This document shows positions 1,493 to 37,710 of a stretch of DNA of 64,000 nucleotides, in pieces. The notes beneath the pieces are model-generated. The model saw only the letters and a list, made by a program, of their open reading frames with translations. It was not told where the DNA came from and made no database searches. Both the position numbers and the translations under genes were made by a program. Within the stretch, counting starts at the first letter, position 1. Each line of letters begins with the position of its first letter. The DNA is from Alphaproteobacteria bacterium (GTDB lineage Bacteria > Pseudomonadota > Alphaproteobacteria > Micavibrionales > Micavibrionaceae), in the NCBI GenBank assembly GCA_030147745.1, contig JASBUS010000061.1:1-64000 (forward strand), read 5' to 3'.

Positions 1493-4177
1493 ATGATGTT
1501 GCGCCAAGCCAAACACGGAAGATTTATGCCGCGTTACAGACCGCTTATTTGTGGGCTGGCTTTGGGCTGTGCGCTTTTTGTGCCTATTGGGCAGCCTGCC
1601 TTAGCCGATGCAATGAATGCCTTGGCCTTTTCAGGGCATAACCAACAAAATGCCGCGCAAAATTATGATGACCAAGCGCTTTACCAATTAACGCCGAACC
1701 AAACGCAAAGGCTGCGTTACAATGCACCGCCACCACTGCCACAAAACGCGCGCGCCGTCGCAACGCAGCTGCCCTATCAAAATATGCGCGCGGAGCCATT
1801 AATCAAACAGCGTCTTTGGAACCAGTCAGGCGAACAAGATTTTGCCGCACGTGCTTCGCTGCAGGCTACACCATCGGCATTAGAAAGTTTTTATTCCGCG
1901 CGCATATTGGAAGAGCTGACACAATATGGCTATGACTTCCTACAAAATAATATGAGCACGCAAGAAACGCCGCCGCCTTTAGGGTTAGTCGGCGATGCCT
2001 ATATGCTCGGCGTCGGTGACCGCTTAAATATTGCTTTAACGGGTCAGCGTAATGCCAGTTACCAAATTGATATCGATAGTAATGGGCAAATCCAAATTCC
2101 AGGTCTTAATCCCTTTTCGGCGAGCGGCAAAACTTTAGGGGCATTAAAGGGCGAAATTACCGCGGCCTTATCAGATGATTATAACCAAAGCGTTTATATT
2201 GCCTTAAGTGAAATGCGCCGCGCTGCAATTTTAGTGGCAGGCCATGTCAAAAAACCCGGCCGCGTCGTCTTAAGCAACCAGCACACCGTAATTGATGCCC
2301 TGATGCAAGCCGGCGGCATTGATAAAACAGGGAGCTTGCGCCAAATCCGCCTTGTGCGTGATGGGCAAGTGCAAATGGTTGACCTTTATAGCTTACTACT
2401 CCATGGCGCAGAGAATTTTAACAGCAACTTGAAAGATGGTGACCGCCTGATCGTTCCGCCAATTGGCCCAACGGTCGCGATATCAGGCGAAGTTAAACGT
2501 GCGGGCATTTATGAAATTCTGCCTGCCGTACAAGGCATGTGGCATACAGGGCAGGCGCGCGCGCAAAATTTATCATTGAATGACCTGCTTGATATGAGCG
2601 GCGGCCTACTATCCCCCGGCAAGACACGTTATTTAAAACTTGATATGCAAAGCAGCGGCGATGAACATATGAGCGAGATTGACGATCCGTTCGCGCGCGT
2701 CTTTAGTGATGGCAGCATATTATCGGTCTCCCGCAACAAAGAACGCCGCGAAGGCACAATTGAAATTACGGGCAAAGCCCTGTCGAGTGGCCTGCACGCC
2801 CTAAGCACGAATCGGACGTTACGCGCATTAATCAAAGACGACCGCAGCCTCGGCCGCGATGTGTACCCCTTAATTGCCGTGATTGAACGCTGGAACAAAA
2901 AGACGCTCGCCCCCGAATATGTCAGCTTCTCCCCTTTAATGGTGTTACAGAATAAATTTGATGCCCCGCTGCAAGATGGCGATATATTGCATTTCTTCTC
3001 TTATGCGCAAATTCAAATGCTCGCCCCCAATCAAGAAGCCGCGCCTTTCCCGCATATGGAAGAGAGCAAAAATAATATTGCCTATGGCGCAACCGATGAT
3101 GACGATTTAGCCGCCTTTGAACAAATCCCCGATCATATCCGCGCGATATTAAAGGAGCGCAGCGCTTTCATTCGTGGCGCCGTGCGCAATGCAGGGCATT
3201 ATCCATTAAGTGATGGCGCGACTTTAGCCAATATCATTTCCGTCGCGGGCGGCTTAACCCTAGAAGCCGATAAAAAGAATATTGAAATCACCCGCCGTGA
3301 AGATAGCCCGCGCCAAGCTGAATATGAAGAGCTGCGTAAAATCAAACGCCGCAATATAAATATCAATGAACAAGCGGCAGAGAATATCTCCATCACCGCA
3401 GGGGACACGATTCGGATTAATCAAAAATTCAACAAGATTTCAGACAACCATGTCCAAATCATTGGCGAAGTTAAAAATCCGGGGCGCTATGACTTAATGG
3501 CGGGCGATACTGTCTTGAGCCTGATTGAACGTGCGGGCGGCTTAAATAAATATGCCTATGCAGAAGGTGCAATCTTAAGCCGCAAGAGCGAGCGCCATAT
3601 TGAAGCGCAGCGTTATAAAAGCTATGCACGTAATTTAGAAGTCGCATTGGCCAATAAAATGCAATCCGACAGCCCGCCAAATGACGGGCAAATTGCGATG
3701 ACCCGTCAATTAATCGATCAACTCAATAAGACTGAAACCATCGGGCGCATCACCTTTGAAGCCGACCCTGATATTTTGGCGACACATCCAGAAGTGAATA
3801 TGCTGCTCGAACGTGGCGACCGTATATATATTCCGAAGCGCCCATTAACCGTTCGCGTCAGCGGTGAAGTCTTATCGCCAGCCTCCTTACAATTCCGCAG
3901 CGAAAAGAAAGCGCGCGAATATATATATGAAGCCGGCGGCTATACCCGCAATGCTGATAAAGACCGCGTCTTTGTCGTTTATCCCGATGGCAGTGCACAG
4001 CCGCTTTATTTAGGGAATTGGACACATAGCGTCCCCTTCATACCACCGGGGTCGAGCATTATTGTCCCGCATGATCCAAAACCATTTAGCTTCCTTGAAA
4101 GCGCCAAGGATATTACGCAGATTTTCACCAACCTAGCCGTCACAGGTTTCTTGGTCAGTGAAATTCAAGATGAATAA
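1493..4177 (+). CDS. Polysaccharide export protein with multiple SLBB domains (Wza/PES type)
   Basis: An 894-residue protein of the outer-membrane polysaccharide export family. A signal peptide-like segment ends at ALADA (about residue 39). A Poly_export domain starts at YMLGVGDRLNI (about 170). At least four SLBB-type modules follow, recognisable by repeated xGxVKxPGxY/L strings such as VAGHVKKPGRV, ISGEVKRAGIY, IGEVKNPGRY and VSGEVLSPASL. Classical Wza is under 400 residues, so this is a long, multi-SLBB version. A second ATG at 1526, preceded by GGAAG, may be the real start because it gives a cleaner signal peptide. It probably forms or gates the outer-membrane pore for an exopolysaccharide, and the adjacent glycosyltransferase supports that. 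Confidence 0.85.
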   Translation: MMLRQAKHGRFMPRYRPLICGLALGCALFVPIGQPALADAMNALAFSGHNQQNAAQNYDDQALYQLTPNQTQRLRYNAPPPLPQNARAVATQLPYQNMRAEPLIKQRLWNQSGEQDFAARASLQATPSALESFYSARILEELTQYGYDFLQNNMSTQETPPPLGLVGDAYMLGVGDRLNIALTGQRNASYQIDIDSNGQIQIPGLNPFSASGKTLGALKGEITAALSDDYNQSVYIALSEMRRAAILVAGHVKKPGRVVLSNQHTVIDALMQAGGIDKTGSLRQIRLVRDGQVQMVDLYSLLLHGAENFNSNLKDGDRLIVPPIGPTVAISGEVKRAGIYEILPAVQGMWHTGQARAQNLSLNDLLDMSGGLLSPGKTRYLKLDMQSSGDEHMSEIDDPFARVFSDGSILSVSRNKERREGTIEITGKALSSGLHALSTNRTLRALIKDDRSLGRDVYPLIAVIERWNKKTLAPEYVSFSPLMVLQNKFDAPLQDGDILHFFSYAQIQMLAPNQEAAPFPHMEESKNNIAYGATDDDDLAAFEQIPDHIRAILKERSAFIRGAVRNAGHYPLSDGATLANIISVAGGLTLEADKKNIEITRREDSPRQAEYEELRKIKRRNININEQAAENISITAGDTIRINQKFNKISDNHVQIIGEVKNPGRYDLMAGDTVLSLIERAGGLNKYAYAEGAILSRKSERHIEAQRYKSYARNLEVALANKMQSDSPPNDGQIAMTRQLIDQLNKTETIGRITFEADPDILATHPEVNMLLERGDRIYIPKRPLTVRVSGEVLSPASLQFRSEKKAREYIYEAGGYTRNADKDRVFVVYPDGSAQPLYLGNWTHSVPFIPPGSSIIVPHDPKPFSFLESAKDITQIFTNLAVTGFLVSEIQDE

Positions 4178-4238
4178 TCTAAAAATATCAGTTATACTCC
4201 CGCCCATAAAATAAAAAATATTCTTTAGGGAGAACTCA

Positions 4239-5045
4239 ATGAACGATAATAATACTGGGTCAGCGCGCCCTTTATATACAATTGTCACCATTACCAAAGA
4301 TAATTTAGATGGCCTTAAAACCACCGAAGCCAGCATTCGCAACTTGAATAGCCAAGATTATGAATGGATCGTAATTGATGGCGCATCGACCGACGGCACA
4401 GTCGATTACCTCAAAACCCTTAGCGATGTTACATATATAAGTGAAACAGATGGCGGCATATATGATGCGATGAATAAAGCCATTCCAATGGCGCATGGCC
4501 ATTACACCATATTCATGAATGCAGGCGACAGTTTCGCCCATAATGATGTGATGCGCAAAATCGCCCGCGCTCATCAATTCATGCCAAGCATGATTTACGG
4601 TGATGCGTTGGAACAATGCCCGACCAATCCTGACCAGTTGATCTTTAAAGCCGCCCGTAAGCATAACCAAATTGCACGCGGCTTATTCACCCATCATCAA
4701 GCGATATTTTATAAGACCGATTTTCTGAAGAACTTCACTTATAATACATTCTATAAAATCGCCGCGGATTATGACCTGACCTTACGCTTTTTGAAGGCGC
4801 ATCCAAAGGCGCTTTATATTCCAAAGCCAATCTGCATTTTTGCCGCGGGCGGTGTCTCACAATTAAATGAACGCCGCGGCCGCATTGAACAGCAAATCAT
4901 TCGCAAGAAAGAACTTGGCTATTCATTACTGCAAAACAAACAAATTGCGCTGACACAAGGCGTGGCAAGCGCCATTAAAAACCGCATGCCGCCAATTTAC
5001 TGGTGGCTGCGCAACCACACGCCAATAGCAAAAAGCGCCCAATAA
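4239..5045 (+). CDS. Family 2 glycosyltransferase (WcaE-like)
   Basis: A 268-residue GT-A glycosyltransferase. It has the N-terminal strand YTIVTITKDN, the nucleotide-binding IDGASTDGT motif (about residues 46-54), the DGGIYDAMNKAI stretch, and a DxD-like NAGDS site (about 93). The pattern resembles colanic-acid WcaE and similar EPS glycosyltransferases. AGGGAG precedes the ATG. It lies 61 bp after the SLBB export gene on the same strand, consistent with surface polysaccharide assembly. Donor and acceptor sugars cannot be read from sequence. Confidence 0.85.
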   Translation: MNDNNTGSARPLYTIVTITKDNLDGLKTTEASIRNLNSQDYEWIVIDGASTDGTVDYLKTLSDVTYISETDGGIYDAMNKAIPMAHGHYTIFMNAGDSFAHNDVMRKIARAHQFMPSMIYGDALEQCPTNPDQLIFKAARKHNQIARGLFTHHQAIFYKTDFLKNFTYNTFYKIAADYDLTLRFLKAHPKALYIPKPICIFAAGGVSQLNERRGRIEQQIIRKKELGYSLLQNKQIALTQGVASAIKNRMPPIYWWLRNHTPIAKSAQ

Positions 5046-13433: not shown

Positions 13434-14012
13434 ATGTTCTTAAAACCTGTCCTTGCTTGGCCTTTAGGCGGCGCTCTACTTGCGCTCGCCTTTGTCAGCG
13501 CCATATTACTGGTCAAACCGATTGGCGTATCGACGCAATTTGTGATTGCCGATGCCGCCGTTTGGGATGTTATTAACCCTGACATCATCACCCCTGATGA
13601 AAATGCCAAATCAGGCTATAGCTCACCCAACGCTTACCTGAATAAAAGCGGCGGTAAATATGCAGCAAATGCAGCCAACCCCTTTAACTATAGCTTTGTT
13701 TTCGTCCTTGCAATGATGGGCGGCGCGTTTCTCTCTGCTCTCTTAAAAGGTGATAAGCCGCAAAGCCCATCTGAAAAAACCATGCCCGCGGTCTGGCGTG
13801 AACGCTTCGGGGAAAATGCGGCTTTACGTTATGGCGTTAGCTTCCTTGCTGGTTTCATCGTGCTTTATGGGGCGCGCCTTGCAGGCGGCTGCACCAGCGG
13901 CCATATGATGAGCGGCATGATGCAAACCGCCTTAAGCGGCTATATTTTCGCCCTTGGCGCTTTTGCCGCGGCGCTACCTGTCGCAATCATTGTCTTTAAC
14001 AAGAAAGGATAA
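13434..14012 (+). CDS. YeeE/YedE family sulfur carrier, N-terminal half type
   Basis: 192 residues, about four membrane helices. The family motif GGCTSGH with C153 sits in a membrane segment. In the TsuA/YeeE thiosulfate transporter such cysteines relay the sulfur substrate through the membrane. A periplasmic insertion of about 45 residues (40-85) follows the first helix. GGAG lies at the right spacing. TsuA is a single fused protein of about twice the size; here the function is split between this gene and the next, as in PmpA/PmpB. Confidence 0.85.
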   Translation: MFLKPVLAWPLGGALLALAFVSAILLVKPIGVSTQFVIADAAVWDVINPDIITPDENAKSGYSSPNAYLNKSGGKYAANAANPFNYSFVFVLAMMGGAFLSALLKGDKPQSPSEKTMPAVWRERFGENAALRYGVSFLAGFIVLYGARLAGGCTSGHMMSGMMQTALSGYIFALGAFAAALPVAIIVFNKKG

Positions 14013-14019
14013 TTTAATC

Positions 14020-14592
14020 ATGGAACTTACACTTGCAATTGTCCTTGGTGCTTTATTTGGTTTTGCCCTCAACCGTGCAGGCGCAACCAACCCACAAAAT
14101 ATCATCAACATGCTCCGCCTAAATGATACGAGCCTGATGAAAGCCATTCTTTTTGCGATTGGCCTCTCCTCGCTCTTCCTCTTTGGTGGCTTGGCACTTG
14201 GCTTTATTGACCCTGCCCATGTGTCGATTAAAAGCGCATATCTTGGTGTCTTCATTGGCGGCTTGCTGCTTGGTCTTGGCTTCGCTTTGGCAGGTTACTG
14301 CCCAGGGACAGGCCTTGCGGCTGCGGCAACTGGCCGTAAAGATGCTCTCTTCTTCGTGATTGGCGGCCTAATTGGTGCATTTGCCTTCACATTATCTTAT
14401 GGCTGGCTTGCGGAACATAGCAGCTTCCTCTTCGATAAAATCGCAGGCGGTGATGTCAGCTTAGCGGCAACAGGCAATGAAAAATATAAAGCCCTGATCC
14501 CAGTCAGCGGAACATTGATCGGCATCGTGCAAGGCATCGCCTTTATCGCCATCGCCTATCTCATCCCCACACATATCTTAAACAAAAAATAA
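14020..14592 (+). CDS. YeeE/YedE family sulfur carrier, C-terminal half type
   Basis: 190 residues counted from ATG 14020, which follows AAAGGAT; an upstream start at 13954 would overlap the previous gene. About five to six helices. The second family motif GYCPGT places C94 in the membrane, complementing C153 of the partner. The 7-bp spacing from the partner gene suggests a heteromeric channel for thiosulfate or persulfide sulfur under control of the upstream repressor. Confidence 0.85.
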   Translation: MELTLAIVLGALFGFALNRAGATNPQNIINMLRLNDTSLMKAILFAIGLSSLFLFGGLALGFIDPAHVSIKSAYLGVFIGGLLLGLGFALAGYCPGTGLAAAATGRKDALFFVIGGLIGAFAFTLSYGWLAEHSSFLFDKIAGGDVSLAATGNEKYKALIPVSGTLIGIVQGIAFIAIAYLIPTHILNKK

Positions 14593-25364: not shown

Positions 25365-27143
25365 TTATGCCTTGTGTCTGTTTGTTTTCACAACCTCAAC
25401 ATAACAAGGTTTGACGCCAGATAAAGCCTCTATACGGTGTTTATCAACGATATTTTCTGCTTCATCATAAGGAATGCCCGTTTGTTCAAGCAATCTACGC
25501 ACCAATTGCAGGCTTGATTCCAAGGTCTCAGGCACAACTGCATTTGCACCTTCTTCATAATAACATTCAATATGATGCGTATCACGCGAACGGATAATAA
25601 TGGGCAGCAACGCCCATTTTTCACGTAACGCATTCAAAATTTTGCGCGAAGATTCAAAATCATCAATCGTGATTACGGCGGCTTCGGCATCCTCGGCCTG
25701 TAATTTCTCCCACAGCATAATATTACGCGCATCACCACGAATAACTGGATAGCCTTCTTTCTTATATTTACTGACGACCAAACCATCTTTTTCAATGGCG
25801 ATATAGGGGATCTTTTGATCTTCTAGAATATTGGCGAGCGTTAAACCGACGCGGCCAAAACCCGCAATAATGATATGATCACGGCGCAATTCATCAAATT
25901 CAACATCGTCATCACGACGAACTTTTGAGAAACGATCGAACAAGAAAGACAAGCGCGTCGTAAATGGCGTTAACAAGAGCGAGACCGTCGCCACAACCAT
26001 GAAGAACTGCGCATCATCCTGCGGCATCAACCCGCCTGCAAGCGCAAGCCCAATCACAATCAAGGCAAACTCCCCACATTGCGCCAATAAAATTGCAGAC
26101 TTCGCGGCCTTAACACGCATGACCCCAAACATTCGCGCCAATGGGTAAAACAAAACAGTTTTCAGCGCAAAAATGCCAAAGACAGAGGCAAAGACCCAGA
26201 ACGGACGCTCCATAATTTCAGCAAAATTCGTCGCCATCCCCACAGATAAGAAAAATATCCCAAGCAGCATGCCCTTAAGCGGCTCAATAATCACTTCAAT
26301 CTCGTGACGATATTCCGTTTCAGCCAAAAGTAGCCCCGCCAAAAACGCCCCCAGCGCCGCAGATAAACCGAAATGGTGAGTAATCATCGCTGAGCCAATC
26401 ACCAAAAACAATATAATCGCGAGCAGCCATTCAACATTTTTCGACGGACTTAGTATACGCAAAGTGGGTTTAAAGAGTAACTTACCGCTGATAAAAATTG
26501 CGCTAATCACAAGCGTTGCCGAGCCCAGCGCCTTGAGCAACATTAAGGTCACACTATGGTCAGAAGATTTAACCGCAAAAGCGCCGACTAAAACCAATAT
26601 TGGTACAACCGCCAAATCTTGCATCAAAAGCACAGAGAAACATACGCGCCCCACTGGCCGCGAAATCAAGTGCCAATCACTTAAAAGCTGCATCACCACC
26701 GCCGTAGATGAAAGCGCAAATGCTGCGCCAATCAAGATAGATGTTGGCAAGCTGTTACCAAATTGCATCGCAATCGCAAAGATCACCCCCCCTGTAACCA
26801 AAATTTGTAACGTGCCTAGCCCCAACACATATTTACGAAGCTCCCAAAGGCGTGCAAAGGTTAATTCAAGACCAATCATAAAAAGCAGGAAGACAACGCC
26901 GAGCTCAGCCAACACAGGAATCAAACCACCATCGGTAATCACGAAATTTTTGAGAAACGGAATGTCATCACCAAGTGCACCTAAGCCAAATGGGCCAATT
27001 AACAAGCCACACATCAAATAACCAATAACAGGCGACACGCGCAGCTTTTGCAGCGCAGGGATAACCAAGCCCGAAAGGCCAAGGATCAATAGAATATCGG
27101 CCAAAAGATGCCACATATTATGTTCGGTCGAAATATCGGTCAT
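25365..27143 (-). CDS. CPA2 cation/proton antiporter with RCK domain (KefB/KefC-like)
   Basis: 592 residues. About 12 membrane helices (15-400) match the Na+/H+ exchanger fold; the motif GLELTFARLWELR and the GAAFALSSTAVVMQLL helix are typical. The C-terminal TrkA-N/RCK domain has the Rossmann string IIAGFGRVGLTLANIL and is followed by a DDxxS-rich regulatory region. The family moves K+ or Na+ out against protons; KefC is gated by glutathione adducts. No ancillary KefF/KefG gene lies beside it. It is divergent from the flippase operon. Confidence 0.9.
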   Translation of the reverse strand: MTDISTEHNMWHLLADILLILGLSGLVIPALQKLRVSPVIGYLMCGLLIGPFGLGALGDDIPFLKNFVITDGGLIPVLAELGVVFLLFMIGLELTFARLWELRKYVLGLGTLQILVTGGVIFAIAMQFGNSLPTSILIGAAFALSSTAVVMQLLSDWHLISRPVGRVCFSVLLMQDLAVVPILVLVGAFAVKSSDHSVTLMLLKALGSATLVISAIFISGKLLFKPTLRILSPSKNVEWLLAIILFLVIGSAMITHHFGLSAALGAFLAGLLLAETEYRHEIEVIIEPLKGMLLGIFFLSVGMATNFAEIMERPFWVFASVFGIFALKTVLFYPLARMFGVMRVKAAKSAILLAQCGEFALIVIGLALAGGLMPQDDAQFFMVVATVSLLLTPFTTRLSFLFDRFSKVRRDDDVEFDELRRDHIIIAGFGRVGLTLANILEDQKIPYIAIEKDGLVVSKYKKEGYPVIRGDARNIMLWEKLQAEDAEAAVITIDDFESSRKILNALREKWALLPIIIRSRDTHHIECYYEEGANAVVPETLESSLQLVRRLLEQTGIPYDEAENIVDKHRIEALSGVKPCYVEVVKTNRHKA

Positions 27144-27303: not shown

Positions 27304-28710
27304 ATGAACGCCCATCACGCCAAATCCATTGCGACTAATGCTTCTTTCCTGATCAGCGCCCAGCTGATCGTGCGCATTTTACGTGGTTTTTACATCGTTT
27401 TACTGGTGCGTTATCTAGGGCCAGAGCTCTATGGCGTATTTCAATATGTTCAAAATTGGTTTGTGACCTTCACGCCGCTAACCTTGTTTGGCATTGGCGC
27501 ATTGCTCAGCCGTGAAATTGGCAAAGATCGCCAGAATGGTCAGCAAATTGTCACGACGACCTTTATCATCCGGTTAATGTCAGGTATTGCTCTTACCCTC
27601 GCTGCACTTGGTCTTGGCCTTATCACCGAACCTGATGGCGACATACGCCATTTAATGGTCATCCTCGCAGGCCTGCTTCTTATGCGTGCCCTCGTCAATT
27701 GGGTGAAGGAGATTTTCGTCGCCTATGAAAAAACGCAATATCATTTGGTACAGGTCACCTTATCAAACATTTTCCAAATTGGCCTTGGTCTTGCCATCAT
27801 GGCCAAAGGCGGCGGGCTTGATGCCTTAGCGCTCGCCTATATCGCTGCACTTTTTGCGGAGTTTTTGATCAGCTTTATATTCATTAACCGCAGAATCATC
27901 AAAATGCAGCTCGATATCAATCTTGCGAAAATCAAAACCATTATCCGCCACGGCTTACCGATTGGCCTAACCGTCGCGTTAAACCGCTGGATGATTTTTG
28001 GCCCGACCATTATTGGCCGCTACGCCTTTGACTATAAAAGCAGCCTTGGGCAGCTTTCCGTCATATTGCTGCTCCTCTTTTTTGCGTCCTTAGTGATTGA
28101 TGCCATTTTACATGCGGCGCTGCCCGTCTTAAGCCGTAGCCTAGAGCAGCAAAAACAAGGCAGTTCAAATTTCATTAATATCACTTTGAGCCTGAGCATC
28201 CCGCTCGCCACATGTTTAAGCCTGATTACCCTCACCTATAACCAAGCGATTATCGCCACGTTATTCGGCGCGGATTACCAAGCCGCAGGCGATATTCTCG
28301 ATTATGCAGTTTGGCTGCTCCTCCCCTATATCTGGATGACGACCATCGCGCAAATCTTCATATTGAAAGAAGATAGCCTACGCCTAACATTCTGGACATT
28401 GCTCGGCGTATTATGGATGGCGGGGTTATTACCGCTTCTTGTCATGAAATTTGACCTTATTGGCGCTATCTATGCCATGGCCGTCGGCATGACTATCACT
28501 TGCGGTGGACTAGCCTTCCACGGCTTCACGCGCGGTTACCTTCATAATTTCCATTTAGGCAAAACCATTGGCTTGTCACTGGGCGCCATATTGATTTACG
28601 CCATTACCGCGCAATTTACCGCACCTCTTTACGCGCTTATCGCCAGTATGATTTTGTTCACACCGTTTATTCTGCGTATTAGCAAACATAGCATCCATTT
28701 AATGCGTTAG
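27304..28710 (+). CDS. Wzx-like polysaccharide flippase
   Basis: 468 residues with about 12-14 membrane helices. The N-terminal pattern (SFLISAQLIVRILRGFYIVLLVRYLGPELYGVFQY) is typical of the MOP/Wzx family that flips undecaprenyl-linked oligosaccharides to the periplasm. First gene of a four-gene operon with two sulfotransferases and an exported CysQ-like phosphatase; the spacing to the next gene is 16 bp with GGAGGAG. No clear ribosome binding site is seen before its own ATG. Context suggests it delivers the glycan that is sulfated on the periplasmic side. Confidence 0.85.
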   Translation: MNAHHAKSIATNASFLISAQLIVRILRGFYIVLLVRYLGPELYGVFQYVQNWFVTFTPLTLFGIGALLSREIGKDRQNGQQIVTTTFIIRLMSGIALTLAALGLGLITEPDGDIRHLMVILAGLLLMRALVNWVKEIFVAYEKTQYHLVQVTLSNIFQIGLGLAIMAKGGGLDALALAYIAALFAEFLISFIFINRRIIKMQLDINLAKIKTIIRHGLPIGLTVALNRWMIFGPTIIGRYAFDYKSSLGQLSVILLLLFFASLVIDAILHAALPVLSRSLEQQKQGSSNFINITLSLSIPLATCLSLITLTYNQAIIATLFGADYQAAGDILDYAVWLLLPYIWMTTIAQIFILKEDSLRLTFWTLLGVLWMAGLLPLLVMKFDLIGAIYAMAVGMTITCGGLAFHGFTRGYLHNFHLGKTIGLSLGAILIYAITAQFTAPLYALIASMILFTPFILRISKHSIHLMR

Positions 28711-28726
28711 GAGGAGACGAAACCTT

Positions 28727-29662
28727 ATGACTTGGAAAATAACCGTACTCGTTTTAAGCCTAATCGCTTTATTCGCCATCAATATGAATTTGGAATATTT
28801 CGACAAAACGCCGAAAAAACATATTTTGATTATCGGCACAGCAAAATCAGGGACGACAGCCGTATATAAATCGGTCAAAGATGCGATTGGTGAAAATTTA
28901 ACATCCTATTTTGAACCCAATGCGTCAGACTTCAACGCCGCATTACGTTCCCGCGCGAAACAAATATTGGTCAAAATCACATTAATTGACCGCGCCCAAT
29001 ATAAAGACCTCTATGACGATATTCACCATTTTGACAAGAAAATCATGGTGATCCGCGACCCGCGCGATATTTTGATCAGTAACTTGCTTTACACCGTACG
29101 TTGGATGCGGTTCAGTAAAGACCCTGAACGTTTAAATATCTTCCTCACCGCCTTAAAAGAAAAAGAAGCAGACCCACAAAGCCATTCAGTCCTGTCGCTT
29201 TATCAATTACGCGACCGCTTGGAAAGCGAAGTGATGCAAAGCTGGGAATCCCCGCGCTCTTGGCAAGATGAATATAATGATTACGCCATCGCCATTCGCA
29301 TGATCCAGAAAAATCCTGACCTGCATATCCTGCGTTATGAAGATTATGTTGACGGAAAGCTTGAAGGGCTAAGCACCTATCTTGGCTTAGACATACAAGG
29401 GAATGCCGATGTCTCAACCTTAAAAGAGCAGCACAGCATTAAAAAATCTCTCCGTAATATTGCGCGCAGCAAAAGCTATGGCAATTGGAAAAACTGGTTC
29501 ACCGCACAAGATGTCGACGCCTTCCGCCCGCTATTTGAGCCCCTCATGACGGCATCAGGCTATAGCGATGATTGGACACTAAATGCCACGCCAGAAATCG
29601 ACCCTGCAAAATCATCCGCATATGTTACGCGGATTGTTTCCGACACTGAAATTACATGGTAA
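28727..29662 (+). CDS. Signal-anchored PAPS-dependent sulfotransferase
   Basis: 311 residues. A single N-terminal hydrophobic segment (5-20) follows a short basic start. No cleavage site is evident, so it reads as an anchor with the enzyme domain outside (inference from charge: one K before; K27, K30 and K31 after a slightly acidic stretch make it ambiguous). The 5'-phosphosulfate loop is GTAKSGTT (37-44) and the 3'-phosphate site is VIRDPRDILIS (108-118, with R110 and S118). These are the standard PAPS-binding signatures of the sulfotransferase fold. Ribosome binding site GGAGGAG. It shares the operon with the flippase, a second sulfotransferase and CysQ. Confidence 0.85.
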   Translation: MTWKITVLVLSLIALFAINMNLEYFDKTPKKHILIIGTAKSGTTAVYKSVKDAIGENLTSYFEPNASDFNAALRSRAKQILVKITLIDRAQYKDLYDDIHHFDKKIMVIRDPRDILISNLLYTVRWMRFSKDPERLNIFLTALKEKEADPQSHSVLSLYQLRDRLESEVMQSWESPRSWQDEYNDYAIAIRMIQKNPDLHILRYEDYVDGKLEGLSTYLGLDIQGNADVSTLKEQHSIKKSLRNIARSKSYGNWKNWFTAQDVDAFRPLFEPLMTASGYSDDWTLNATPEIDPAKSSAYVTRIVSDTEITW

Positions 29663-29699
29663 GATCAACGCGTAAAAACGGACAAGGACAAGGATAATC

Positions 29700-30629
29700 A
29701 TGACCAAGCTTTCCCGCCGCGATTTTATAGCCTTCGGGCTCGGCGCCGCCACAACCATTGGCGGGCTCGTCACTTTAGGCAAATGGCAAAGCCGTGATAT
29801 TCCAGTTACGCGCGCCGAAGGTAATAAAGTACAGCTTTTCCTGCATATCCCCAAAACGGGCGGCACGTCGCTGCGCGAACATATCATGAAAAATGTCAAG
29901 GCGAGCCAAATCGCCATGCCCGAAAGCCCAAGCAATATTTGGCATCTGCAAAAATATTACAGCCATTACCTCAATGACTATGATTATATTTATGTCCGCG
30001 GCCATTTCGCGCGGGACTGGACACGCTTCCTAACTGATTATACCGACCAGACCGAAGCCATTACTATGCTGCGTGACCCGATTGAACGCGTCCGTAGTGC
30101 TTATCAATATCAGACCACACATTGGGCGACCAAAGGCAGCTACGCCGAAAGCCTTGTTCAGCGCGCACCAGAAAATCTCGCCGCTGTTATTGACCTATTT
30201 GATCAAGACAATAAATCAGGCAAAGCCGACCAACATTTCCTCATGGAATTTAATGACGGCATTACCCGCCGCCTATGCGGTAAAAAATGGGCTGTCCCCT
30301 ACCGTCAGACCACCGCGGATATGTTAGAGGCCGCCAAAAATAACCTCGACAAGCATTTCAAAGTCATTGGTGTGACGGAGGAATATAATAAATTCCTTTA
30401 TCTCCTCCGCGTTGATTATGGCTGGAAGCTTAACCCATCAATCCGCAAAAATGCCACCGCCAAAAAACTTACCTTGAGCGAATTGGATATCGAGAAAATC
30501 AGCGACCTTAACCGCCTAGATTTAGAATTATATACCCACGCCAAGATGCGTGCCGATGCCCTTTTTGATGCTTTAAGCGCCGAAGAACGCGCCAATTACG
30601 ACCGTTTTATTAATCCCAACGCAGGATAA
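29700..30629 (+). CDS. Tat-signal sulfotransferase (heparan 2-O/family 2 type)
   Basis: 309 residues. The N-terminus has a twin-arginine motif SRRDFIAFG (5-13), a weakly hydrophobic stretch (11-27) and a following basic/polar region: a classic Tat signal, possibly retained as an anchor. The catalytic part is Sulfotransfer_2: HIPKTGGTS (49-57) is the PAPS phosphosulfate loop, RGHFARDW (100-107), and RDPIERVRSAY (125-135) is the 3'-phosphate site. Tat export implies that it folds with cofactor or structure before transport. A PAPS-dependent enzyme outside the cytoplasm is unusual in bacteria. It starts 37 bp after the first sulfotransferase and ends 4 bp before the phosphatase gene. Confidence 0.85.
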   Translation: MTKLSRRDFIAFGLGAATTIGGLVTLGKWQSRDIPVTRAEGNKVQLFLHIPKTGGTSLREHIMKNVKASQIAMPESPSNIWHLQKYYSHYLNDYDYIYVRGHFARDWTRFLTDYTDQTEAITMLRDPIERVRSAYQYQTTHWATKGSYAESLVQRAPENLAAVIDLFDQDNKSGKADQHFLMEFNDGITRRLCGKKWAVPYRQTTADMLEAAKNNLDKHFKVIGVTEEYNKFLYLLRVDYGWKLNPSIRKNATAKKLTLSELDIEKISDLNRLDLELYTHAKMRADALFDALSAEERANYDRFINPNAG

Positions 30630-30633
30630 TCCA

Positions 30634-31467
30634 ATGAAAATATTGCTGACAATGAGTTGCTTAATCTGTGCTTTGTTATTCACACCGCTGCACGCTAAGG
30701 CAAATGATTGGACAGCCGATGACATCATCGCGATTACCGACCAAGCCGGTGAAATTTTGCTGCGCCATTACAGTGCGCAGCCAAGCGAAGTCAGCTTAAA
30801 AGCTGATCACTCCCCTGTGACCGCCGCCGATAAAGAATCCAGTGCCTTCATCCTTGAAGCATTAAGCATTCTTACGCCAGATATTCCCGCCTTATCCGAA
30901 GAATCCGCCGCCACAGCAAAAATCACAGATCGTTTCTGGCTGATCGATCCAATGGATGGCACAAAAAGCTTTATCAACCGCACAGGGCAATTCACCGTCA
31001 ATATTGCCTTAATCGAAAACCAACAGCCCGTTTTCGGCGTTGTGCATATCCCGCTTAGTCACACGACATATTTCACAGACCGCGATGGCAATGCCTTTAA
31101 ACGTTTTGAAGGCGAAACCGCCCCTATCCATGTTCGTAAAGCAAGCAAGAAAGATGGTCTAACCTTAGTCGCGAGCCAACTGCACCGCACCCCCGCGGAT
31201 GAAGCCTTCATTGCCGCGAATAACATTAAAGATATTAAAACTATGTCGAGTTCGATTAAATTCTGCTTAATCGCCGAAGGGAAAGCGGATATCTATCCGC
31301 GCTATGGCACAACGATGGAATGGGATACCGCAGCAGGTCACGCGGTGTTAAAAGCAGCAGGCGGCCATGTTGTAATCCAAGGCAGCCAAAAAGACCTTCT
31401 CTATCACAAGAAGGACTTCAAAAACCCGCATTTCATTGCCTATGGGAATATTATTGATTATCCGTAA
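30634..31467 (+). CDS. cysQ: Exported CysQ-type 3'(2'),5'-bisphosphate nucleotidase
   Basis: 277 residues. Inositol-phosphatase-fold enzyme removing the 3' phosphate from PAP, the by-product of PAPS-dependent sulfation. Metal-site motifs: SEES (88-91), DPMDGTKSF (105-113) and WDTAAGHA (230-237), all intact. Compared with E. coli CysQ from memory, it has about 25 extra N-terminal residues that form a clear Sec signal peptide ending in HAKA/ND. The mature protein begins exactly where cytosolic CysQ begins. Start ATG follows AGGATAA, four bases after the upstream stop, so translation is coupled. The enzyme is therefore predicted to act in the periplasm, where the cotranscribed sulfotransferases would produce PAP. 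The Golgi enzyme gPAPP is the closest functional parallel. Confidence 0.9.
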   Translation: MKILLTMSCLICALLFTPLHAKANDWTADDIIAITDQAGEILLRHYSAQPSEVSLKADHSPVTAADKESSAFILEALSILTPDIPALSEESAATAKITDRFWLIDPMDGTKSFINRTGQFTVNIALIENQQPVFGVVHIPLSHTTYFTDRDGNAFKRFEGETAPIHVRKASKKDGLTLVASQLHRTPADEAFIAANNIKDIKTMSSSIKFCLIAEGKADIYPRYGTTMEWDTAAGHAVLKAAGGHVVIQGSQKDLLYHKKDFKNPHFIAYGNIIDYP

Positions 31468-31476
31468 AAGGAAAAA

Positions 31477-32241
31477 TTAAGCTGTAAGCGCTAAGCCCAA
31501 AGCTTGTGACACAAGCTTGGTATTGCGCGGGCTCAATTCGACTTCACGTAGTTGATCTTTATGAATATAAGTCACTGTTGCGCGATCTTTACCCGTCACT
31601 TGAATATCATAATCAGACGGGTCAGCCTTTTTCGCAAAACGAATAAAAGCCTGCGCCATAATATCTTCTGAACGCTTATCCGCTTTTGCTTGTGCTTGTG
31701 CATCAAGTGTTTCTTCACGCTCATTCAGCATGTCGATGATTTCACGCACCTGAGGATCTTTCAAACGGCGGATTGCTTCACGGCAAACACGAATTTTCTG
31801 GGTGAACTGATTCACCATTTTTTCAATTTCATGCGGCTTGCTTGCAAATGTGTAACTATTCGCGCGTGATGAAAATGTCTCTGTCTTACGGACCAAACAA
31901 TCCAAAGCTTGTTCAGGATTATTGCGTGGATTTGCAGGACGATAAAAAGAGCCACAATCACCGTTTCGAACTTTACCATCAATCGCCATATAGACATTCT
32001 TGGCTGTGTTCACAAGACTAACAAGGCATTCATCGGCATTATAGGCAATGACCGTGTTGTCTTTATCACGGACAATATCCTGCAACATTTTTGCAGCATC
32101 TTTGTAATTATGGATGGGAATAGACGGACCGAAGAAACGATTATCAAATTCGCGCTCGCCGCCATTTTTGCCCAAGACGTGCTTATCAAATGCATGTCCG
32201 GTCGCAATAAGTGCCAATAATGGATTAATTAAACTAGCCAC
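31477..32241 (-). CDS. Hypothetical protein
   Basis: 254 residues, mostly helical, no family recognised. The N-terminal 16 residues are hydrophobic but lack a good signal peptide pattern. There are four Cys (near 68, 97, 114 and 154). A charged coiled-coil-like stretch spans about 170-190 (LNEREETLDAQAQAKADKR). It is convergent with the sulfation operon, 9 bp apart, with no visible hairpin. Confidence 0.6.
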   Translation of the reverse strand: MASLINPLLALIATGHAFDKHVLGKNGGEREFDNRFFGPSIPIHNYKDAAKMLQDIVRDKDNTVIAYNADECLVSLVNTAKNVYMAIDGKVRNGDCGSFYRPANPRNNPEQALDCLVRKTETFSSRANSYTFASKPHEIEKMVNQFTQKIRVCREAIRRLKDPQVREIIDMLNEREETLDAQAQAKADKRSEDIMAQAFIRFAKKADPSDYDIQVTGKDRATVTYIHKDQLREVELSPRNTKLVSQALGLALTA

Positions 32242-36702: not shown

Positions 36703-37710
36703 ATGCAAGAATATTTACAATTAAACCGCTATACCCCCCTTATTTCAGGCATCTTGCTTTGCAGCCTTCTGACCATTATCGCCAAATTTGGTGGTACGGC
36801 GCTGCATCTGCCGATTATGCTCTGCTGCTTAGGGCTTGGCTTTTTGGGGCATCCCTTCACGCAAAAGATGCCGCAGTTTAATGCGGGGGTTGGTTTTTCT
36901 GCTAAATTTATTCTGCGCCTTGGGGTGATATTGCTCGGCGCGCGTTTTGCCTTTGCGGATTTATCTGGCCTTGGCGGCGTCACGATCCTGCTGATCATCG
37001 CCGCGACTTTAGCGACCATCTTCATCAGCCTTGCTGCAGCCAAAATGCTCAAACTTTCGCATAATCTCGGCCTCCTACTCGGCGGGGCAACGGCGATATG
37101 TGGCGCATCAGCATCCTTGGCGATTGCCGCCCTACTGCCGCAAAATAAAGAGACCGATGAACAAACCGCCGCCGCCGTTATTGCCGTTACCGCGATTGGG
37201 ACATTGGCGATGATCCTTTACCCGTTCATCTTGCCGCTTCTTCCCTTTACAGATCAACAGGCCGCCTTATTCATTGGTGGGACTATCCATGATGTGGCGC
37301 AGGTTGTTGGCGCGGGCTATAGCCTATCGCATGATATTGGTGACGGCGCGATATTAGTGAAACTTATTCGCGTTTTCATGCTGATCCCTGTATTGGTCGT
37401 GCTCTCCCTCCTGATCCGCCATGACCATAGCGCAGGCGCAGGCACAAAACCGCGTTTTCAATTCCCGCTTTTCTTAATTGGCTTTATCGCTTTGCTTGGT
37501 TTGAATGCGATGGGGCTTATTCCCGATGCACTGCGCAGCAGTTTGAAAGATGCATCAAGCTGGGCGCTGATGATTGCCCTTACCGCGGTCGGGCTAAAAA
37601 CCCCGATCGGCAAGATCTTCATTCAGGCGCGCAAACCCTTCATTTTGGTGCTGATCAACAGCTTCGCGCTTATCGCGCTCTATGCCGCTTATATATTTCT
37701 GGTCGCTTAA
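36703..37710 (+). CDS. YeiH/UPF0324 family membrane protein
   Basis: 335 residues, about ten membrane helices. The conserved stretches GVILLGARF, GATAICGASASLAIAALLP and GGTIHDVAQVVGAGYSLS are diagnostic. Databases label the family putative sulfate exporter, without solid experimental proof. It lies 5 kb from the sulfation operon, which is noted but not used as evidence. It overlaps the convergent DUF3147 gene by 4 bp. Confidence 0.85.
   Translation: MQEYLQLNRYTPLISGILLCSLLTIIAKFGGTALHLPIMLCCLGLGFLGHPFTQKMPQFNAGVGFSAKFILRLGVILLGARFAFADLSGLGGVTILLIIAATLATIFISLAAAKMLKLSHNLGLLLGGATAICGASASLAIAALLPQNKETDEQTAAAVIAVTAIGTLAMILYPFILPLLPFTDQQAALFIGGTIHDVAQVVGAGYSLSHDIGDGAILVKLIRVFMLIPVLVVLSLLIRHDHSAGAGTKPRFQFPLFLIGFIALLGLNAMGLIPDALRSSLKDASSWALMIALTAVGLKTPIGKIFIQARKPFILVLINSFALIALYAAYIFLVA

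Follow-up and report, generated by a model that had tools for sequence, protein, structure and literature searches.

We analysed a stretch of 64,000 nucleotides (hereafter the window; positions 1 to 64,000, forward strand, of contig JASBUS010000061.1, assembly GCA_030147745.1) from an alphaproteobacterium of the family Micavibrionaceae, and found in it a four-gene operon which, judged from its predicted proteins, probably forms an extracytoplasmic (periplasmic-side) sulfation module that depends on 3'-phosphoadenosine 5'-phosphosulfate (PAPS) and removes the by-product 3'-phosphoadenosine 5'-phosphate (PAP) locally. Bacterial PAPS chemistry is taken as cytoplasmic. Exported sulfotransferases together with an exported PAP phosphatase would predict PAPS in the bacterial periplasm, and hence a bacterial PAPS carrier; if this holds, the operon would follow the logic of Golgi sulfation independently, in a bacterial form simple enough to be rebuilt in E. 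coli, and would offer a possible way of sulfating exported glycans in bacteria. The operon comprises the following open reading frames (ORFs), with identities given for the two congeners of the source genome:

27304-28710, + strand: gene 1, Wzx/MOP-type flippase, 468 aa (PF01943 E 1.2e-17; 78% and 62% identity)
28727-29662, + strand: ST1, PAPS-type sulfotransferase with N-terminal anchor, 311 aa (PF00685 37.5 bits; 81% and 72% identity; AGGAGG before the ATG)
29700-30629, + strand: ST2, PAPS-type sulfotransferase with twin-arginine signal, 309 aa (PF03567 30.1 bits; HS6ST3 5t03 E 5e-10; 76% and 63% identity)
30634-31467, + strand: exported CysQ, predicted PAP phosphatase, 277 aa (TIGR01331 272.4 bits; best solved match CysQ 3b8b)

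The ORF coordinates confirmed the tandem arrangement of four genes, with gaps of 16, 37 and 4 bp, described in the original prediction from the letters of the window alone, and Pfam and NCBIfam profile scores bore out the family names that it had given to all four. Gene 1 matched PF01943 (Polysacc_synt) with 64.7 bits (cut-off 28.2) and scored 25.4 of 800 with NF041871, so that the substrate type of the flippase is not fixed by profile. ST1 was assigned by PF00685 (Sulfotransfer_1, cut-off 22), ST2 by PF03567 (Sulfotransfer_2, cut-off 22) and gene 4 by PF00459 (169 bits, cut-off 27). With the CysQ model TIGR01331, the operon protein and its two congeneric orthologues (264.8 and 267.0 bits) all exceeded the cut-off of 228.8, and in all three species the HisN and inositol monophosphatase (IMPase) models remained far under their own cut-offs.

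The case for an extracytoplasmic location comes from the N-termini of the last three proteins, whose predicted signals are:

28739-28783, + strand: hydrophobic anchor of ST1, residues 5-19 (Kyte-Doolittle 2.6-3.0 over 15 residues, uncharged, 5-8 of 15 identical, three species)
29700-29789, + strand: twin-arginine signal of ST2 (SRRDFIAF and hydrophobic core), residues 1-30 (RRDFIAF invariant in three species; no start codon other than the first ahead of the domain in the source genome, G000)
30634-30702, + strand: Sec signal of CysQ, residues 1-23, predicted cleavage AKA, then ND (congeners SQA, then AD, and ANA, then AD)

Comparative evidence was drawn from three species of one genus (the source genome G000 and the congeners G001 and G002). 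The original prediction had been staked on close relatives not starting downstream of these N-termini, and all three N-termini were kept in both congeners. The signals drift in sequence yet stay hydrophobic: the N-terminal cores of CysQ and ST1 contain no charged residue in any of the three species, though up to 13 of 15 residues differ, and the maximal Kyte-Doolittle value over 15 residues was 1.6-3.0 at the N-terminus versus 0.6-1.4 in the rest of each protein. The CysQ signal shows an MK or MR start, a 15-residue uncharged core and an AxA-type cleavage site in all three; between G000 and G002 its core is identical at 3 of 15 positions, none of the 12 substitutions being charged, in a protein that is 60% identical overall. 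In each of the three species ST2 carries [ST]RRDFIAF and, after it, a Gly/Ala-rich hydrophobic core (Kyte-Doolittle 1.6-1.7), and it is because of this conserved motif and core that we assign it to twin-arginine translocation (Tat), the Tat profiles being below cut-off; TatC is encoded in the genome. The ST1 N-terminus consists of a short basic tail and then the uncharged core, with a charge difference of -1, -3 and 0 in the three species, so that the charge rule favours an N-in/C-out orientation in two of them and is neutral in the third (G002). Thus, the predicted export of both sulfotransferases and CysQ was upheld by the conserved signals and by signal-less controls in the same genome (below), except for the periplasmic face of ST1, which these charge values do not secure.

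Mis-called start codons are an unlikely source of these N-termini. Purine runs resembling Shine-Dalgarno sequences lie upstream of most of the start codons, and the first ATG of ST1 is preceded by a strong ribosome site (AGGAGG). In G000, ST2 has no ATG, GTG or TTG between codon 1 and its domain; alternative starts of CysQ are lacking past codon 14 in G000 and lacking altogether in G001. An internal ATG at codon 20 of ST1 is present in G000 and G001 and absent in G002. The starts are predictions, and this internal ATG would suit the idea that wrongly placed start codons created the signals; the chance of this nonetheless seems close to negligible, since ST2 in G000 and CysQ in G001 offer no usable downstream start before the domain, ribosome-site-like sequences are in place and hydrophobicity is kept despite sequence drift.

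The source genome (2.39 Mb, 101 contigs, 98.6% complete) encodes CysD and a CysN-CysC fusion (CysNC), the genes of PAPS synthesis, and no reductase of PAPS or adenosine 5'-phosphosulfate (APS) was found, the sole PF01507 match in each genome of the genus being CysD. A nearly complete genome that has the synthesis genes and yielded no such reductase suggests that PAPS is made for use in sulfation. The same genome carries a signal-less second CysQ (G000 C36; 263.6 bits with TIGR01331), 39% identical to the operon CysQ, and its three other PF00685 proteins lack a hydrophobic N-terminus. The score of the operon CysQ with its equivalog model, PAPS synthesis without PAPS reductase and the signal-less second CysQ together reinforce the link to PAPS chemistry that had been proposed for the operon. 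A clear start-anchored signal was found in none of 56 CysQ loci from other genera (order and phylum); three candidates among the relatives (L050, L057 and L103) were rejected as signal-bearing, their in-frame hydrophobic codons being judged, though not proven, to lie upstream of the probable start. The operon CysQs formed one clade (97/85) in a maximum-likelihood tree, apart from the genome's cytoplasmic CysQ, which led us to reject the exported protein as a recent duplicate of the genome's own.

Several other observations concern the same enzyme families and sulfur metabolism. The pairing has a cytoplasmic counterpart in another genus of the family (G100, L041), where a signal-less CysQ is encoded beside a sulfotransferase-like gene. 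G001 has a second APS kinase, a stand-alone one (C9; L030 7713-13969), which adjoins a polysaccharide cluster with a flippase and a glycosyltransferase. Long-frame PF00685 matches of ~800 aa recur in many relatives, and a TPR-sulfotransferase fusion of 805 aa (L089 2477-4894) adjoins flagellin-like genes. Two adjacent YeeE/YedE-type sulfur transport proteins (PF04143; window 13434-14592) are compatible with use of reduced sulfur.

The residues expected of PAPS-binding sulfotransferases and of a metal-dependent phosphatase were present in the operon proteins:

28835-28858, + strand: 5'-phosphosulfate loop GTAKSGTT of ST1, residues 37-44 (invariant in three species)
29054-29080, + strand: 3'-phosphate motif RDPRDILIS of ST1, residues 110-118 (invariant in three species; aligns with SULT2A1)
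29844-29873, + strand: 5'-phosphosulfate loop HIPKTGGTSL of ST2, residues 49-58 (invariant in three species)
30003-30005, + strand: His102 (GHF) of ST2, candidate catalytic base (invariant; aligned with GHV, His142, of HS2ST in a weak alignment)
30072-30098, + strand: 3'-phosphate motif RDPIERVRS of ST2, residues 125-133 (R, P, R and S positions conserved; matches RDPVSRYLS of HS6ST3)
30946-30963, + strand: metal site DPMDGT of CysQ, residues 105-110 (D105, D108, G109 and T110 invariant in seven IMPase/CysQ sequences)

Among solved structures, the ST2 profile matched first the Golgi enzyme HS6ST3 (heparan sulfate 6-O-sulfotransferase 3, 5t03; E 5e-10) and weakly HS2ST (E ~0.06), in which His142 is the putative catalytic base and the H142A mutant retains <1% activity (PMC6094399); ST1 gave weak SULT matches only. 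In CysQ, E89, W230 and D231 are also invariant, which completes the IMPase metal site (E, DPxDGT, WD), and the best solved match was the CysQ structure 3b8b (E 4.7e-59).

Under the reading that we favour, CysD and CysNC would make PAPS in the cytoplasm and a carrier would bring it across the inner membrane to the periplasm, where an envelope molecule would be sulfated by ST1, with its inner-membrane anchor, and by ST2, which Tat would export in the folded state. Because gene 1 belongs to the Wzx family, which is the sole basis for this step, the acceptor would most likely be a lipid-linked glycan that Wzx flips. PAP would be hydrolysed to AMP by the Sec-exported CysQ, which would relieve product inhibition locally, and the AMP might be exchanged for incoming PAPS, as has been suggested for the Golgi. 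The proposed logic of a second, exported CysQ in the operon is thus that PAP must be cleared locally and may feed transport. Here we infer the periplasmic orientation of ST1, the substrate, the carrier and the activity.

A search of related genomes for the same four-gene set, which had been suggested as a check, recovered all four genes in the same order and with the same flanking genes in both congeners searched. In a scan of named genome contigs ST1 had two matches only, Alphaproteobacteria bacterium ARS11 55527 and Micavibrio sp. UBA2705. No orthologue of the operon was found in other relatives, weak partial ST2 matches being present in two members of another family of the order, and a class-wide sample added one further weak ST2 match. 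No ST2 relative was found in viral contigs and phages, and a plasmid search returned Priestia proteins only, 26-30% identical, the best of which has its annotated start close to the sulfotransferase domain. The operon would therefore be a genus-level trait of a Micavibrio relative, recovered in metagenome-derived assemblies; base composition and synteny argue against contamination.

Beyond the operon, a CPA2 antiporter (25365-27143) and a YeiH-type protein (36703-37710) flank it, also in the congeners. The latter is a putative sulfate export transporter (PF03601; TIGR00698 154 bits, below cut-off), and each of the three congeners encodes it ~5 kb downstream of CysQ (window 36703-37710; L014 1015-2016; L015 2382-3392). 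We rejected this linkage as functional evidence: unrelated sigma-factor and vWA genes between the YeiH-type gene and the operon co-travel. In five relatives outside the genus, KefB-like homologues occupy other neighbourhoods, which lack the operon. Directly after the operon, on the opposite strand, the window encodes a 254-aa protein without a Pfam match (31477-32241) that is kept in the three congeners (75% and 48% identity). Near the contig end (window 1493-5045), genes for a large SLBB/Wza-GfcC polysaccharide export protein and, after it, a family 2 glycosyltransferase may provide a way out for a surface polysaccharide.

Several results weigh against periplasmic sulfation. The Tat profiles scored ST2 under their cut-offs (PF10518 13.5 bits, cut-off 22.7; TIGR01409 12.5 bits, cut-off 16.7), the ST1 topology is weakly supported, the charge rule being ambiguous in one of the three species (G002), and AlphaFold, run on three-sequence alignments, gave unusable models of ST1 and ST2 (mean pLDDT, the predicted local distance difference test, 37 for ST2 and 41 for ST1). 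No glycosyltransferase is encoded among the four genes, and the module was seen in one genus of metagenome-derived genomes only. The carrier is a further difficulty. The original prediction had already stated that a PAPS carrier is needed and unseen, and none was recognised among the conserved neighbours, where a linked one was sought; a search of the genome for one carrier family, the eukaryotic UAA/SLC35B family of the Golgi PAPS transporters, gave no match, and others (mitochondrial carrier, EamA) lay outside that search. A literature search found no bacterial periplasmic PAPS sulfotransferase, exported bacterial CysQ or bacterial PAPS transporter, which is weak evidence, most subscription papers being outside its scope. 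Any specific carrier is much less probable than the module itself, and it is highly doubtful that the operon reproduces Golgi sulfation as a self-contained bacterial unit in which the MOP-family gene 1 product itself carries PAPS (or exchanges PAPS and AMP) across the inner membrane.

The need for a carrier would disappear if ST1 and ST2 were only tethered at the inner membrane, their cytoplasmic active sites sulfating the lipid-linked glycan before Wzx flips it, and CysQ alone were exported, for salvage. This arrangement would accommodate the indecisive charge balance of ST1 (0 in G002) and the ATG that two species have at its codon 20, and it agrees with cytoplasmic sulfotransferases that adjoin flippases in the same family (G001 C12, G022 C255) and with the Wzx/Wzy model, which assigns sugar modification to the cytoplasmic side (PMC8205485). 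It would, however, leave the twin-arginine motif of ST2, present in three species, without purpose on a cytoplasmic enzyme, and the exported CysQ of the same operon unexplained, and the other sulfotransferases of the genome have no tether; we consider it unlikely, with a small but real chance of being correct.

Micavibrio relatives are predators, and two further explanations draw on this general knowledge and on the lack of a recognised carrier. The exported CysQ might be a scavenging 3'-nucleotidase or phosphatase, acting for example on 3'-phosphonucleotides or coenzyme A fragments from prey, with the sulfotransferase-like proteins PAPS-free or merely ligand-binding. The versatility of the IMPase family would allow this, but all three species have a CysQ above the curated PAP-phosphatase cut-off, with HisN and IMPase scores far below the respective cut-offs, the PAPS-site motifs are kept in both sulfotransferases, and an operon shared with two PAPS-type enzymes speaks against unrelated salvage, so that this explanation is distinctly improbable. 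Alternatively, periplasmic sulfation might be real and fed by PAPS from outside, released by lysed prey or neighbours and entering through the outer membrane, with no inner-membrane carrier; since the cell makes its own PAPS, and extracellular PAPS is scarce and unstable, we regard such a supply as very improbable.

Periplasmic sulfation by the operon, as predicted, would have its closest analogue in the Golgi lumen. Mammals have BPNT1 as a cytosolic and BPNT2 as a Golgi enzyme, and their PAPS transporter is possibly a PAPS/AMP antiporter (PMC8551643). Like the operon, Golgi sulfation employs sulfotransferases whose N-terminus carries a membrane or export signal (predicted here) and has a PAP phosphatase of its own from the IMPase superfamily (gPAPP/BPNT2) in the compartment of these enzymes, a compartment that in our case is predicted from signals; like the source genome, it is accompanied by PAPS synthesis and a separate PAP phosphatase in the cytoplasm. 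This comparison, drawn in the original prediction, gained strength from the position of HS6ST as the closest relative of ST2 among solved structures and from the BPNT1/BPNT2-like pair of cytoplasmic and exported phosphatases. Unlike the Golgi system, the operon belongs to a bacterial envelope, relies on Tat and Sec targeting and has no UAA-family carrier that we could find.

Among bacterial systems, the operon CysQ resembles the usual CysQ (TIGR01331) in its full-length match above cut-off and its intact metal site, and differs in its predicted cleavable Sec signal, of which the second CysQ and the 56 relatives have no clear example. Periplasmic AssT is PAPS-independent and belongs to another fold family (PF05935); it shares with the operon sulfation outside the bacterial cytoplasm (predicted for the operon), whereas ST1 and ST2 gave no match to PF05935 and matched PAPS-type families only. 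The xss and synechan clusters for sulfated polysaccharides also encode sulfotransferases with a Wzx flippase, the sugars being modified on the cytoplasmic side before flipping in synechan as in the general Wzx/Wzy model (PMC8205485); in contrast, the enzymes of the operon carry predicted export signals and are accompanied by a PAP phosphatase. The common ancestry of the operon enzymes with those of the Golgi is old, and their exported arrangement looks convergent.

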